Positions 16,133-20,667 of a stretch of 44,230 nt of DNA are shown here, one piece after another. The DNA is taken from positions 1 to 44,230 of IMG/VR virus record IMGVR_UViG_3300008266_000544; one strand, given 5' to 3'. Every line of letters starts with the position of its first letter. The first letter of the stretch is position 1. The notes under the pieces were generated by a model, which saw nothing but the letters and a program-made list of their open reading frames with translations, had not been told where the DNA came from and did no database searches. Source of the stretch: a virus. The translations under genes and the position numbers were made by a program.

Positions 16133-16362
16133 GCTGTTGGTCTTTCGTAAGGGAAACCGTAAACTTCGCAAAGGTCTTTCCAGTCGCGATCTACGCGCAG
16201 AAATCTTTGTTGTTCGCGGCGATAGTATCGTTCGAATCTTTCTTTGCGAATATCATCGGTAAAAGGATTGAATTTTTCTTCATAAGGCGCGAAATTGTTT
16301 TGGCGCATTGTAGCTATGACTAATTGCAAGTCTTCTTTTTTGCGGAGTTGTGAGGGTTTCAT
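16129..16362 (-). CDS. Small basic hypothetical protein
   Basis: 77 residues, very rich in Arg and Lys (R-Y-Y-R-R-E-Q-Q-R-F-L-R-V), probably nucleic-acid-associated but without a known domain. It starts inside the stop of the YopX-like gene upstream and stops inside the next ATG. Confidence 0.65.
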   Translation of the reverse strand: MKPSQLRKKEDLQLVIATMRQNNFAPYEEKFNPFTDDIRKERFERYYRREQQRFLRVDRDWKDLCEVYGFPYERPTA

Positions 16363-16775
16363 TTTTCTAATAGTTCACTATTTTCAAAGATGTTACCAAT
16401 AACTTCCATATTTTCACTGATTAATGCTCCTTTTCCCCAATTTCTTTCACGCGATCCCATAATTTCCCCGTCTATATGGTATCCAAAACACTCTGTTCCG
16501 CAATAGTTGTCATCAGCAGAAGCGTAGCAATTGCCGAAATTCACGGGATAACATTTATTCTCTTTTAAAATGTTTACAATGTCCCCCTCGTAAATCTCTA
16601 CTCCATTCTTGTCTTTGAGACCAGTATATTGTTGTAGAGTAAACTGCTCTTCCTCTTCTTCTGACAATGGATCACCAGAGCCATGAATAACAGAAAGAAT
16701 GTTACCTGCTACAATATCATAGTTATACTCTTTTTCTGTGGCATCCCATACACGAAATTTGATTTCTCTTTTCAT
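16359..16775 (-). CDS. YopX-family protein
   Basis: 138 residues from the ATG at 16775. It has the family plan: M-K-R-E-I-K-F-R-V-W-D at the start, Q-Y-T-G-L-K-D-K-N-G-V-E-I-Y-E-G-D-I-V in the middle and I-G-N-I-F-E-N-S-E-L-L at the end. YopX proteins are common in phages and their role is not established. It is one of three paralogues in the operon, with a longer central insert than the other two. Confidence 0.88.
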   Translation of the reverse strand: MKREIKFRVWDATEKEYNYDIVAGNILSVIHGSGDPLSEEEEEQFTLQQYTGLKDKNGVEIYEGDIVNILKENKCYPVNFGNCYASADDNYCGTECFGYHIDGEIMGSRERNWGKGALISENMEVIGNIFENSELLEK

Positions 16776-17038
16776 ATTAGTTCGTAAGTTTCCCATTCAA
16801 TAAGTCCTTTAGGATGGAAATTGCATCCACCGCAACCTCCATCCCTACCATTACAAATAATACATTTTTTACTTTGTTTTTGTTTATTTAACGAAGCAAC
16901 AATTCCCTTTCCCCCACACTTGCTGCACTTTTCCGTTGAATAATGTCCGCAGAAATATTCAACATCCCCTTCTCCTTCACAGCTAGGGCAAACCAAAGCT
17001 CCGTGAGATTTTATTAATTGTTTTATCTCGTTTGTCAT
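16772..17038 (-). CDS. DnaJ-type zinc-finger protein
   Basis: 88 residues. Pairs C-P-S-C-E-G-E-G (17-24), C-S-K-C-G-G-K-G and C-I-I-C-N-G-R-D-G-G-C-G-G-C follow the C-x-x-C-x-G-x-G style of DnaJ cysteine-rich domains, so it should bind two zinc ions. There is no J domain. It is inserted between two YopX paralogues with ATGA overlaps on both sides, which suggests co-production. Confidence 0.75.
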   Translation of the reverse strand: MTNEIKQLIKSHGALVCPSCEGEGDVEYFCGHYSTEKCSKCGGKGIVASLNKQKQSKKCIICNGRDGGCGGCNFHPKGLIEWETYELI

Positions 17039-17418
17039 ATATTTAATAGTTCGGGATTTTCAAATACATTTCCGACGACTTCAATATTGTCACCGCACCA
17101 TACACCTCTAATATCATTTTTGTTAATCCAAGTTAAGAAACTTCCTTCATCAAAAATTACTTTTCCAGTAAAGTTCTCATTTTCAAATTCCTCACTGTAG
17201 GCTTTAACAATATCCCCTTCAAAGATCTCGACTCCATTCTTGTCTTTACAACCAGTATAATTTTCTTTTACGAAACGTTCAGTTCCGCATATCTTTATAA
17301 TATCCAAATTCAAAACTACCGATACGATTCCATCCTGTTTGACAAGATGATGAACACATGGAGTATTGTAGGTTTTTAACTCTTTGTCCCATACACGGAA
17401 TTTGATTTCTCTATTCAT
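17035..17418 (-). CDS. YopX-family protein
   Basis: 127 residues. Starts M-N-R-E-I-K-F-R-V-W-D-K-E-L-K, has Y-T-G-C-K-D-K-N-G-V-E-I-F-E-G-D-I-V and ends V-G-N-V-F-E-N-P-E-L-L. It shares V-H-H-L with the adjacent paralogue (17415-17792), so the two arose by tandem duplication. Function unknown. Confidence 0.88.
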   Translation of the reverse strand: MNREIKFRVWDKELKTYNTPCVHHLVKQDGIVSVVLNLDIIKICGTERFVKENYTGCKDKNGVEIFEGDIVKAYSEEFENENFTGKVIFDEGSFLTWINKNDIRGVWCGDNIEVVGNVFENPELLNI

Positions 17419-17792
17419 TTTTCTAACAGTTCAGGGTTCTCAAAGATATTGCCGATAATCTCCCTATCTTTCACATCAATCAACCAACATCCCCTACCAC
17501 CATAAGAATCAAGCACGAACCTCGCGTCATCTTCATCCCACACAACTTCAAACAAATCTTCTTGTTCTGTGGAGCCAAATGCGATAATATCTCCCTCGTA
17601 AATTTCTTTTCCGTTTTTGTCTTTTAAGCCAGTGTATTGTTGAATGATAAATCTATCATTTCCAGAGATTTTTTGAACATCCATATTCAGAACAATAGAC
17701 ACTATACCATCATTTTTAAGTAAATGATGGACATTGGGTGAATCGTATCGTTTCAGTTCTTTATCCCAAATGCGGAATTTAATTTCTCTCAT
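17415..17792 (-). CDS. YopX-family protein
   Basis: 125 residues from the ATG at 17792; the longer frame to 17861 runs into the previous gene. Carries M-R-E-I-K-F-R-I-W-D, Y-T-G-L-K-D-K-N-G-K-E-I-Y-E-G-D-I-I and I-G-N-I-F-E-N-P-E-L-L. Lead gene of the coupled chain. Confidence 0.88.
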   Translation of the reverse strand: MREIKFRIWDKELKRYDSPNVHHLLKNDGIVSIVLNMDVQKISGNDRFIIQQYTGLKDKNGKEIYEGDIIAFGSTEQEDLFEVVWDEDDARFVLDSYGGRGCWLIDVKDREIIGNIFENPELLEK

Positions 17793-17796
17793 ATTA

Positions 17797-18273
17797 TTAG
17801 TTATGTTTATCGCAGCGTGTTTTCCACCATCCTGTGCTGTGCAGCTTACCATCTTTACCACAGACTTCGCAGACTGTCAAGGATTTTTCTTCCCATTTGC
17901 GACAAATATTGTAATACTCGTCACGATAGATTTCCCATGCACCCTCACTCTTTTCAAGATCACCTTGGGGAGTGAATTGACCGAATTTTTCTTTGATGAT
18001 ACAGCCTTTGTATTGGAAGGTGTGACCTTCTGCGACAGCTTTGTCAGCGAGAGCTTGCATATCTTCACAAAAGCCGATTACAATATCTTTCCAACCAATA
18101 CCATGTTCAAAACCATAGCGCAGATTGACTAATTGATCTTGTGTGATTCCTTCTGTTTTGTAGAAGTCGTCATAAACTCCTTGAACATATTTTGATGGTT
18201 CAAGAAATATTTTGGGAAATTGTTCGACGACTGGTAGCCAGCCTCCTTTTAAGTGTTCTTTTAGAAATTCCAT
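17797..18273 (-). CDS. Conserved phage protein with C-terminal Cys/His motif
   Basis: 158 residues from the ATG at 18273 (M-E-F-L-K-E-H-L); the longer frame overlaps the next membrane gene. The C-terminus has C-E-V-C-G-K-D-G-K-L-H...G-W-W-K-T-R-C-D-K-H, a likely zinc-binding module. The family is recurrent in phages, without known function. Confidence 0.7.
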   Translation of the reverse strand: MEFLKEHLKGGWLPVVEQFPKIFLEPSKYVQGVYDDFYKTEGITQDQLVNLRYGFEHGIGWKDIVIGFCEDMQALADKAVAEGHTFQYKGCIIKEKFGQFTPQGDLEKSEGAWEIYRDEYYNICRKWEEKSLTVCEVCGKDGKLHSTGWWKTRCDKHN

Positions 18274-18471: not shown

Positions 18472-18717
18472 TTATTGTTTTTTATTGCATGTGCGCCATG
18501 CTTCGTTTATTTGTTTTTGTTGTTCTTCTTGTTGTTTTTGTCGCCACTCGCAGTGAGCTTCGAAGCCGTCTTGGACGCATTCAAATTGGCTAGCAGCATT
18601 TGCTAGCATCGCATAAACTTCGTTAAGTGTCAGCGCATTCAGGTCGGAGCATGTCCATGAGTAGCCGCGAATATATTCTACTAATTGTTCGAAGTTGTAT
18701 GTTTTGTGCGTTTTCAT
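18472..18717 (-). CDS. Hypothetical protein
   Basis: 81 residues, with R-G-Y-S-W-T-C-S-D-L-N-A-L-T-L-N-E-V-Y-A in the first half and a Gln-rich helical C-terminus. No known domain. It lies directly downstream of attC-like site A, so it could belong to the cassette segment, though no site closes it on the far side. Confidence 0.65.
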   Translation of the reverse strand: MKTHKTYNFEQLVEYIRGYSWTCSDLNALTLNEVYAMLANAASQFECVQDGFEAHCEWRQKQQEEQQKQINEAWRTCNKKQ

Positions 18718-18727
18718 ATTGTTGCAA

Positions 18728-18785
18728 ATTGAACAGGTCGATACAGAAGACGGCTATTGCCGCTCCTGATCTTGGTTGTTAGCAA
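18728..18785 (-). other. attC-like site A
   Basis: On the plus strand ATTGAAC (18728-18734) and GTTAGCAA (18778-18785) bracket an imperfect hairpin: GATACAGAAGACGGC, TATT loop, GCCGCTCCTGATC, with A18743 and A18750 left unpaired. End boxes ending in AAC and beginning with GTT, plus unpaired bases on one arm, are how integron attC sites are built. The gene 18779-18949 stops inside its GCTAAC box. Confidence 0.5.
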
Positions 18786-18949
18786 TCACGCAATTCGCGC
18801 CCTTCCGTGGTTAGCATCGCAGCGGCAATTCGCAGGAGCGTTGATGAGTCCACCCCCGAACTTGGCGCATAAAAATGCACGGATTCTATCCCATCTCCCG
18901 CTATTGCGTGAGCGGCTTTAGTAAATTTTTCTAGCTCTGGATCGTTCAT
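18779..18949 (-). CDS. Small protein in a cassette-like unit
   Basis: 56 residues from ATG 18949, starting M-N-D-P-E-L-E-K-F-T-K-A, ending L-R-D-C. GC-rich compared with most of the window. The start is 10 nt from the predicted recombination point of site B, and its TAA is within GC-TAA-C of site A, so gene plus site A would make a 226-nt cassette (18734-18959). Function unknown. Confidence 0.6.
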   Translation of the reverse strand: MNDPELEKFTKAAHAIAGDGIESVHFYAPSSGVDSSTLLRIAAAMLTTEGRELRDC

Positions 18950-18952
18950 GAA

Positions 18953-19042
18953 TTGCTAACAAGTCAGTGGAGGGAATCGCCGTTCCGCTCCTGTTTGTTT
19001 TCGTGCTGCGAGGGCGGCGATCCCTCACTTGTGGCGTTATCG
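18953..19042 (-). other. attC-like site B
   Basis: TTGCTAAC (18953-18960) and GTTATCG (19036-19042) enclose arms 18966-18982 and 19015-19030 that pair over about 15 bp (AGTG(G)AGGGA(A)TCGCCG with its complement), leaving two bases unpaired on one side. The TTGCTAAC end is the exact reverse complement of GTTAGCAA in site A, as expected when one cassette separates two sites. Confidence 0.5.
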
Positions 19043-19067
19043 GTGTGTCTGTGCCTCTCTTGCGTGT

Positions 19068-19316
19068 TCATGGTGTTGGTTCTAATAATTTACGCGCCTT
19101 GTTTGTTGTTCCTAATCCAGCAATAGTGCCGCCATTTTCAAAGTGCGCATCAAGCAAATCAGCGAGATGACGCAATTCTTTTTTCAGCTTCTCGCATTCC
19201 TCGCACTTCTCGCGGTATGCGGCGGCTAATACTGGTAATGCCGAAGTTGGCGCGTATGTGCTGACAGTGTCTGCCCATTGCAACGCCGCCTCGATCTGTT
19301 CTTGTGTTGGTTTCAT
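19068..19316 (-). CDS. Conserved phage/environmental small protein
   Basis: 82 residues, starting M-K-P-T-Q-E-Q-I-E-A-A-L-Q-W-A-D, a familiar N-terminus among short phage proteins of unknown function. The middle is helical with C-E-E-C. GC-rich. It overlaps the upstream zinc-finger gene by ATGA and is followed by attC-like site B. Confidence 0.7.
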   Translation of the reverse strand: MKPTQEQIEAALQWADTVSTYAPTSALPVLAAAYREKCEECEKLKKELRHLADLLDAHFENGGTIAGLGTTNKARKLLEPTP

Positions 19317-19699
19317 AGCTTAAAATTCAGTATCCCGTTAGGTTTGCAAAAAGGGTGTTCTTCAGAAGCCCCACTGTTCACCCAGTGGATGAATCGGCTA
19401 TTTGGCACTGTATAGCACCATTGGCATTGCTCCATCGTCGGTTGTCCTTCGGAGTCTGGAACCATATACCATCCCACGTTGTCGCAGTTCGGGCAGTTCT
19501 CGATTTCTAGCGTTCCAGACCCTTTACAGGCTGGACACATTACGTCAATCCCCGCGCCCCACGGTGTCACGCCGCCGCTATCTACCGCGCCCGTGCCGTC
19601 ACAGTGGTAACAAGAAGCCGAACAAGGCATACCATCCAACCCCTCTCCACGGGGTTCTTCAATGGTGTCTGGCTTCGATTGTGTTTGATTTTGGCTCAT
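19313..19699 (-). CDS. Zinc-ribbon-like protein
   Basis: 128 residues from the ATG at 19699. Contains C-Y-H-C-D-G-T-G, C-P-A-C-K-G-S-G, C-P-N-C-D-N-V-G and C-Q-W-C, four C-x-x-C pairs that should make two zinc sites of the DnaJ type. The sequence is clearly GC-rich relative to the genome. Possibly a partner or chaperone-like module; no J domain is present. It lacks a boundary site before 19316, so it and the next gene would move together. Confidence 0.7.
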   Translation of the reverse strand: MSQNQTQSKPDTIEEPRGEGLDGMPCSASCYHCDGTGAVDSGGVTPWGAGIDVMCPACKGSGTLEIENCPNCDNVGWYMVPDSEGQPTMEQCQWCYTVPNSRFIHWVNSGASEEHPFCKPNGILNFKL

Positions 19700-19743
19700 A
19701 GATTTAGGGCTTCGATTCGGGGTGGATGGACTCAGCGTTAGCC
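19700..19743 (-). other. Truncated attC-like site D
   Basis: Minus strand GGCTAAC (19743-19737) holds the TAA stop of gene 19738-19935 and is the reverse complement of the GTTAGCC end of site C. No matching GTT end or second arm is seen before the next gene, so the site appears truncated. Confidence 0.35.
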
Positions 19744-19935
19744 AATACAAATTTGATTTGCTGCGGCGTTTAACTCCATCCACGCAAGCAAGTCACCATC
19801 AGAAGGATCATCCCTGTATTCGGGGTATTTTTCCACCAGCGTTTTAGATGCGCTCCACAAGCGGATCACCTTTTCGCAAAAGGCATCTGGATCGTTGCCC
19901 ATTTCTTCCATTATTTGTTCGTGTATCTTTGTCAT
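19738..19935 (-). CDS. Small protein in a cassette-like unit
   Basis: 65 residues starting M-T-K-I-H-E-Q-I-M-E-E-M-G-N-D and ending N-Q-I-C-I-G. Helical and acidic, no known family. Its TAA is in GGC-TAA-C, the same arrangement as the gene ending at 18779, and its start lies about 20 nt from the GTTAGCC end of site C. Confidence 0.6.
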   Translation of the reverse strand: MTKIHEQIMEEMGNDPDAFCEKVIRLWSASKTLVEKYPEYRDDPSDGDLLAWMELNAAANQICIG

Positions 19936-19951
19936 AATCGTAAAATCAAGA

Positions 19952-20015
19952 GGCTAACAAGACGGTCGAGGCAACGGTCGGGTCGGTGTGTGTCGGATTT
20001 TCCATGTGGTTAGAG
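19952..20015 (-). other. Degenerate attC-like site C
   Basis: GGCTAAC (19952-19958) and GTTAGAG (20009-20015) are 50 nt apart in a GC-rich gap between genes. The end boxes fit, but I find no strong stem between them. Support comes mainly from the reverse-complement match of its GTTAGCC end with GGCTAAC at 19737-19743. Confidence 0.35.
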
Positions 20016-20022
20016 AGTTGCT

Positions 20023-20265
20023 TCATAGTTTTGATTGTTGAGGAGCTTTGTGTCGGCGCGGGGCCAGATCTATGGCGTTTGGCAGAAGAAATTCACTATG
20101 CTCGTAGAATACCCTACCACCATCTATCGGTTCGCATAACCATCCATCTCCTAGCTGACGCTCAATGAGCTTTACAGTTCGCTTTGATCTTTCGTGCCAT
20201 GCTGTCATGCCTAAGCTAAAGCCTTTAGGCATTCTTACCATCGAATCGTCAACTCCATTTTTCAT
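20023..20265 (-). CDS. Hypothetical protein
   Basis: 80 residues from the ATG at 20265 (ATGA overlap); an ATG at 20277 is also in frame. The first half has L-G-M-T-A-W-H-E-R-S-K-R-T-V-K and the C-terminus is basic (R-R-H-K-A-P-Q-Q-S-K). A small nucleic-acid-binding role is possible. Not recognised. Confidence 0.65.
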   Translation of the reverse strand: MKNGVDDSMVRMPKGFSLGMTAWHERSKRTVKLIERQLGDGWLCEPIDGGRVFYEHSEFLLPNAIDLAPRRHKAPQQSKL

Positions 20266-20627
20266 GCTTTGCGCCATCTTGAGGATTTTTTAATGTCAGT
20301 ATTCTCGATGAAGAAATCATCGCCTTCGAAAATCAAATGACCGTCACCATCCCAAGCCCATGCGACTTTGAGATTTGTTTCTGAATCAATAAAACAATGA
20401 ATACTTTCTCTTTCTTCGTCGGTGCATTCTTCGATGTATAAATGTTCTCCCAACAACATAGGAGCATATTTATCAAACCCTTCGGGAAACGGAACGAATG
20501 AATCGCGCAGTTTGAAGTTCGAATAGCAGCCTCTACCCTCTCCAGGAAAGGCGTATTCCAAAAGAGATTCTCCCAAAGTGTATTCGTCTTCTTTGGCAAA
20601 TTGTAAAATGTAATCGTCAAGTTTCAT
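20262..20627 (-). CDS. Acidic hypothetical protein
   Basis: 121 residues, strongly acidic, with W-A-W-D-G-D-G-H-L-I-F-E-G-D-D near the C-terminus. No catalytic motif is recognised. The promoter at 20639-20667 leaves 11 nt before the ATG. Confidence 0.7.
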   Translation of the reverse strand: MKLDDYILQFAKEDEYTLGESLLEYAFPGEGRGCYSNFKLRDSFVPFPEGFDKYAPMLLGEHLYIEECTDEERESIHCFIDSETNLKVAWAWDGDGHLIFEGDDFFIENTDIKKSSRWRKA

Positions 20628-20638
20628 CGCTGCGGAGG

Positions 20639-20667
20639 AATATATGGTATTTTGTGGGCGTTGTCAA
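20639..20667 (-). promoter_or_regulatory. sigma70-like promoter
   Basis: TTGACA (20667-20662), 17 nt, TATATT (20644-20639), 11 nt to the ATG. Confidence 0.7.

Follow-up and report, generated by a model that had tools for sequence, protein, structure and literature searches.

Small genes between attC-type sites in a tailed-phage fragment: a probable short integron cassette array with reversed gene polarity

The window, by which we mean the whole 44,230-base stretch of DNA analysed here, is a virus record without end repeats and is probably a fragment of a genome. Among its genes are those for an RIIA-like protein and a UvdE-type endonuclease, along with seven tRNAs. Its nearest relatives in the viral collection carry UvdE proteins 74-81% identical to its own. 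Positions 16359-17861 hold three tandem YopX-like genes, the third of which (17415-17861) matches YopX genes from phages of Listeria and Bacillales at over 80% identity across a short stretch. The locus of interest lies within a run of small minus-strand genes. It is a segment of 1.35 kb whose GC content (46-51% in the GC profile, against 36-43% in the flanks) agrees with the original prediction that the segment is GC-richer than its surroundings. Its features are given below; R1 and R2 are the two covariance models described in the following paragraphs, and G/TT marks the breakpoint.

18725-20079, no strand: lineage-specific GC-rich insert, from blastn against the relatives L002-L006 and the GC profile; on the right it ends at GCGTT (20074-20079), from which point L003 is homologous again
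18728-18784, plus strand: attC site A, with a degenerate R'' box ATTGAAC and R' box GTTAGCA (R1 26.1 bits, E 5e-4; R2 18.8 bits, E 0.044)
18779-19036, no strand: cassette 1, from G/TT to G/TT, consisting of the body and attC B; GTTAGCA and TGCTAAC pair 7/7
18779-18949, minus strand: cassette gene 1, 56 aa, antiparallel to attC, with its stop inside R' GTTAGCA (codon score -4)
18954-19042, plus strand: attC site B, with R'' box TGCTAAC and R' box GTTATCG (R2 44.1 bits, E 1.8e-7)
19037-19737, no strand: cassette 2, consisting of the body and attC C; R' and R'' pair 3/7; two genes inside
19068-19316, minus strand: cassette gene 2, 82 aa, antiparallel to attC (codon score 10.7)
19313-19699, minus strand: cassette gene 3, 128 aa, antiparallel to attC (codon score 10.2)
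19617-19743, plus strand: attC site C, with R'' box GCCGAAC, R' box GTTAGCC and a long variable loop (R2 30.4 bits, E 1.5e-4)
19738-19981, no strand: cassette 3, truncated in attC D; GTTAGCC and GGCTAAC pair 7/7
19738-19935, minus strand: cassette gene 4, 65 aa, antiparallel to attC, with its stop inside R' GTTAGCC (codon score 12.8)
19952-19981, plus strand: attC site D, left half only, GGCTAACAAGACGGTCGAGGCAACGG; the right arm is missing

Sites A and B had been described as imperfect palindromes, bounded by AAC and GTT boxes and with bases left unpaired on one of the arms, and this description holds. In a geometry scan with arm and spacer lengths fixed from an aadA7-type attC, a sequence present in 2,514 plasmid records, B and A are the two best matches in the whole window on either strand (stem 12/12 and 11/12, respectively), while shuffled windows yield 0.027 matches of stem score at least 11 per window. 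In both sites the extra unpaired bases lie on the left plus-strand arm, the L'' arm. The bottom strand of site A forms a hairpin with two extrahelical T, and the stem of site B is intact, with bulges of 5 nt and 1 nt. The single-strand fold proposed as a check also came out as expected, the bottom strands of both sites folding better than their shuffles (z -2.5 for A and z -3.0 for B). For site B the fold is as good on the top strand as on the bottom strand, and site C, taken whole, does no better than its shuffles because its loop is long.

Since the aadA7 spacing had been chosen after A and B had been inspected, models trained on other data were used next. The covariance model R1 was built from 20 attC sites from 80 bacterial loci with an integron integrase, and it identifies 101 candidate attC in bacterial loci, nearly all of them where an array upstream of intI should lie, in strand as well as in side. 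Besides site A, R1 finds nothing above 13.5 bits in the window; it misses site B, whose loop is long, and R2 was therefore built from the 101 bacterial sites of R1. Both training sets exclude the window, and both models recover the three sites of phage TJE1 that are called attC in PMC9892861. Over the whole window, the bacterial-trained model returns sites B, C and A with E values of 2e-7, 1.5e-4 and 0.04, which supports their identity as attC. All three R2 matches are on the plus strand, and A, B and C each score below 3 bits on the minus strand.

Sites C and D had both been regarded as degenerate in the original prediction. Of D, only the left half is present; at C, a whole attC (19617-19743, 30.4 bits with R2) had been missed. 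The imperfect fit of the end boxes to RYYYAAC, raised as an objection to attC identity, loses its force, as genuine attC of bacteria also carry GTTAGCA and AGCTAAC boxes. A repeat family of similar shape, suggested as an alternative, is excluded by the bacterial attC geometry together with the occurrence of the same site family beside phage integron integrases. An Rfam scan of the array region of the window gave no match.

Three plus-strand attC are found within 18728-19743, with no intI nearby. Consistent with the earlier observation that no integrase is seen, the TIGR02249 profile detects no integron integrase in the window, nor in twelve relative records, most of them fragments. The combination of intI, attI and cassettes that makes up a complete integron does not occur in the window and, with no integrase there, the segment is, on its sequence, a CALIN (a cluster of attC without an integrase) rather than a complete integron. 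The array looks partly decayed, with the degenerate site A, the half site D and the mismatched cassette 2.

Integrons are known as gene-capture platforms of bacteria. In bacterial cassettes the gene runs in the same direction as its attC, and each cassette begins with an R' box complementary to the R'' box of its own attC, since circularisation brings the two together. Two lines of evidence, the model and the position of the extra unpaired bases, place the attC of the window on the plus strand and consequently shift the unit boundaries: in place of a unit at 18734-18959, as first proposed, the cassettes run from G/TT to G/TT at 18779-19036, 19037-19737 and 19738 onward. The same two lines of evidence overturn the polarity that had been assumed for the sites relative to the genes, since all four window genes are on the minus strand and thus antiparallel to sites on the plus strand; the same-direction arrangement is not found here. 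The exact complementarity reported for the boxes is confirmed (7/7 for 18778/18954 and 7/7 for 19737/19952), and the TAA stops of genes 18779-18949 and 19738-19935 do lie inside the GTTAGC box. A 7/7 match of R' to R'' occurs in two of the three window cassettes and, among the cassettes of other phage arrays, in 23 of 34, compared with 5 of 45 within single linear sites. Cassette 2, given its 3/7 pairing and its two genes, probably represents two cassettes between which the attC has been lost.

Gene 1 is the sole long ORF in cassette 1. Gene 2 has partial relatives in other viral contigs, with 41-44% identity over the N-terminal half. The ATG of gene 3 lies inside the loop of attC C, and its product has CxxC knuckles like those of DnaJ and anti-TRAP (PF00684, E 2e-5, and RtpA, E 4e-6, both below the cut-off). 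No relatives of genes 1 and 4 were found in viral contigs, no protein family above cut-off was found for the window cassette genes, and the insert, searched as DNA or as protein in plasmid and phage records, gave no match. Some cassette genes of other phage arrays start inside or beside their own attC loop (L138 4553-4981, L134 4758-5153 and L128 1994-2914), and the attC arm there encodes the N-terminus, a recurring AVVQERLV-like peptide.

The comparison with related phages that had been proposed as a presence or absence check shows the segment to be lacking in the relatives, with homology resuming at GCGTT. None of the outcomes that had been named as refuting the attC interpretation was obtained. 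In blastn comparisons the relatives either lack 18725-20073 or have other sequence there: 18705 is followed directly by 20259 in L006 and about 18724 by 20643 in L004, and L002 and L003 carry 319 bp of other DNA in place of the window segment. In L003 homology resumes at GGCGTTYGGC (20074-20083). This boundary at GCGTT would fit a G/TT junction and is rated as suggestive only, because L003 has no attC there: a search with filters off for a hidden attC at the homology boundary of L003, where GCGTTCGGC sits, gave no match. With R1 and R2, 31 relative phage loci yield no match up to E 10, and cmsearch returns nothing better than E 2.4 for three relatives scanned as genomes of 134, 148 and 47 kb. 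Among the relatives compared, no two genomes of the window lineage differ by one window cassette. At 18480 and across 18705-20643, each of L002-L006 carries different small genes, and insertions of 0.3-2 kb at several junctions mark this locus as a hotspot of gene gain and loss, even without visible attC.

The sites of the window have counterparts in other viruses. GCTAACAAGNCNGTNGAGGNAA, the consensus of sites B and D, is present in 18 viral contigs. The half site D, GCTAACAAGACGGTCGAGGCAA, is identical to the left arm of full attC in other viral loci; its 22-mer at 19953-19974 occurs exactly in 13 of 18 viral loci, each time as the left arm of a full attC. In the scanned viral loci R2 detects 44 sites, up to six consecutive per contig, and in contig G026 nine consecutive attC adjoin intI.

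Four of the attC contigs (G032, G016, G017 and G026) encode an IntI-type recombinase scoring 180-260 bits, with the catalytic residues kept in all four. The G032 protein reaches 260 bits with TIGR02249, whose cut-off is 265; this is its top family, the next best giving 180 bits, and the score is far above those of the XerC/XerD models. Its catalytic R, K, HxxR, H and Y are retained, as is the IntI insert. Phage genes are found on these contigs: portal, head and helicase genes in G032, terminase, portal and tape measure genes in G016, and a terminase gene in G017. In a tree with 37 bacterial IntI, which has long branches and a biased bacterial sample, leaves exact placement unsure and was used only for nesting versus non-nesting, the array-contig IntI lie on long branches outside the bacterial set, and the Vibrio and Shewanella phage IntI of PMC9892861 (Va_90-11-286_p16 and M16-3) nest among the bacterial ones. 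A further virus record, L157 (IMGVR_UViG_2861254865_000001), carries an IntI 76% identical to that of G032.

Gene polarity in these arrays was assessed with a codon test and a bacterial control, as a longest-ORF test in the GC-rich phage contigs had proved uninformative (13 to 13). In the control, the gene is parallel to attC in 34 confident-gene cassettes and antiparallel in 0. Under the same scoring, with the codon test trained on a phage mixture and several viral cassettes lacking a confident gene, the phage arrays show 13 antiparallel versus 3 parallel genes and three more arrays 7 versus 1, giving a viral total of about 20 antiparallel to 4 parallel for cassettes scoring 10 or more. Two parallel calls, both in L134, are doubtful, since the other strand has longer and more plausible ORFs, so the antiparallel ratio is if anything an underestimate. 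Inversion of whole arrays was rejected as a cause, because it would leave the relative polarity of gene and attC unchanged.

In the GenBank annotation, the genes between attC are antiparallel in PH101 and MW202573 and parallel in TJE1 and Rctr41k; to judge from these annotations, antiparallel polarity is not universal in phages. Annotated genes are antiparallel in the CALIN phages L183 (NC_029094, 75.9-78.0 kb) and L180 (MW202573, 2.0-3.8 kb), a feature that the available text of PMC9892861 does not mention.

The extent of the mobile unit is readily apparent from a cassette common to L127 and L139, which encodes a Tad2-like protein (PF11195, E 3e-21). The two copies are 96% identical over 461 nt, and the sequence outside is unrelated. 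The shared block extends from 2 nt after one G/TT to 8 nt after the next; it takes in the attC on the 5' side of the gene and leaves out the one on the 3' side. Consequently, the mobile unit consists of the body and the attC at the gene start, with the gene antiparallel. R'/R'' pairing is symmetric and cannot say which flanking site belongs to a cassette; the Tad2 cassette, at the level of sequence comparison, fixes the polarity for its family independently of the covariance model. Regarding other cargo, L134 carries a second Tad2-like gene (PF11195, E 9e-23), L138 an Acb2/Tad1 hairpin protein (PF24729, 29.4 bits, cut-off 27) and L123 a methyltransferase-like protein, judged by motifs; the PF11195 matches, like that of PF24729, exceed the cut-off. 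The Tad2-like and Acb2/Tad1 cassettes are predicted anti-defence genes.

Collectively, these findings make it highly probable that 18725-20079 is a short integron cassette array in a tailed phage, belonging to a phage pool of antiparallel genes whose exchange would be driven by IntI. It is unlikely that the segment is instead a piece of a bacterial chromosomal integron that was captured once, together with bacterial cassettes, and is now inert. Capture of this kind is known in Vibrio and Shewanella phages from the available text of PMC9892861, in the tree the IntI of these phages nest among bacterial IntI, and a degenerate array without an integrase would agree with it; however, the orientation of all four window genes, antiparallel to attC, is that of 0 of 34 confident bacterial cassettes, and the closest attC relatives found by the GCTAACAAGNCNGTNGAGGNAA pattern search, which covered viral contigs, are in other phages.

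It is very improbable that the attC are genuine and their polarity has been misread, such that the other strand recombines and gene and site are parallel after all. The symmetry of R'/R'' pairing between the two strand readings and the equally good fold of site B on either strand would permit this, but the model score of site B is 44 bits on the plus strand against less than 3 on the minus strand, and the cassette shared by L127 and L139 carries the attC that adjoins the 5' end of its gene, with a break at the G/TT of that site. Least credible of all are ordinary transcription terminators or chance palindromes among small phage genes, a reading already refuted for site B: early phage regions do have many small genes with hairpins in between, and the whole-site fold of C is no better than shuffles, but in A and B the spacing is exactly that of attC and the extra bases sit on the proper arm, against an expectation of 0.027 per window, the covariance model gives E 2e-7, R' and R'' pair exactly across the gene in two units, and identical left arms form a family in 13 viral loci.

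For the preferred reading, an integron cassette array, the following mechanism can be proposed. An IntI-type integrase from another phage, a prophage or the host would act on the array, folding the attC bottom strand into a hairpin and cutting between G and TT. Cassettes would then move between phage genomes as single-stranded circles, with exchange occurring between co-infecting phages or with prophages, and would be expressed from phage operons. In bacterial cassettes, a promoter near intI drives the genes outward, away from intI. A phage-pool cassette gene would start beside or inside its own attC and run away from it, and phage arrays would thus be read with the phage operon and toward intI. 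The simple reading of the reversed polarity is that the genes share the direction of the phage operon, which is toward intI. The likely purpose would be rapid swapping of small accessory genes, for example anti-defence genes.

The phage arrays resemble bacterial integrons in the attC geometry, the G/TT breakpoints and the R'/R'' pairing across the cassette, in an IntI with the family insert and catalytic residues, and in an attC array on the strand opposite to intI. They differ from them in having genes antiparallel to attC and an IntI on long branches outside the sampled bacterial IntI. No attI was identified in the phage arrays.

CALINs and integrons in phages were reported by Qi et al. 2023 (PMC9892861). 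In the available text of that paper, the attC of the virulent phages TJE1, PH101 and P12002L are used by IntI1 in an assay, PH101 and MW202573 are listed as CALIN carriers, and the cassettes of TJE1 and PH101 are called typical, with gene-attC polarity unreported. The arrays described here are like the phage CALINs of that text in being attC clusters without an integrase in tailed phages, with small genes of unknown function and DNA methyltransferases among the cargo. That text contains neither the window array nor the phage IntI lineages, nor does it have the Tad2 and Acb2/Tad1 cargo.

Two further cases are comparable. The integrons of the temperate phages Va_90-11-286_p16 and M16-3 likewise have IntI and attC within a phage genome; their IntI nests among bacterial IntI and their genes are mostly parallel, neither of which is seen in the arrays found here. 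The tailed virus Rctr41k (KX853513) also combines an IntI-like gene, 39% identical to the IntI of G032, with three attC matches of the model. Unlike in the arrays found here, its genes are parallel to attC and its IntI is co-directional with attC. In this virus (L179, 4680-5678 and 7921-8813) the IntI-like gene is annotated xerD, with the attC 2-3 kb away.

CALINs in phages being already known, what is new beyond membership is the reversed polarity. A literature search that covered few subscription journals and no preprints returned no description of integrons specific to phages and having reversed cassettes or an anti-defence cargo. The evidence tilts slightly towards a wider interpretation, namely that phages have an integron system of their own, with divergent IntI, phage-specific attC and an antiparallel cassette pool through which accessory and counter-defence genes are exchanged, and of which the window would be a decayed branch. 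If phages do possess such mirrored integrons with anti-defence cargo, these would provide a site-specific route for swapping counter-defence genes between phages. The attC sites and their polarity would then offer a search handle for new anti-defence genes among the tiny unknown genes of phages, and it becomes testable whether polarity separates the cassette pool of phages from that of bacteria.
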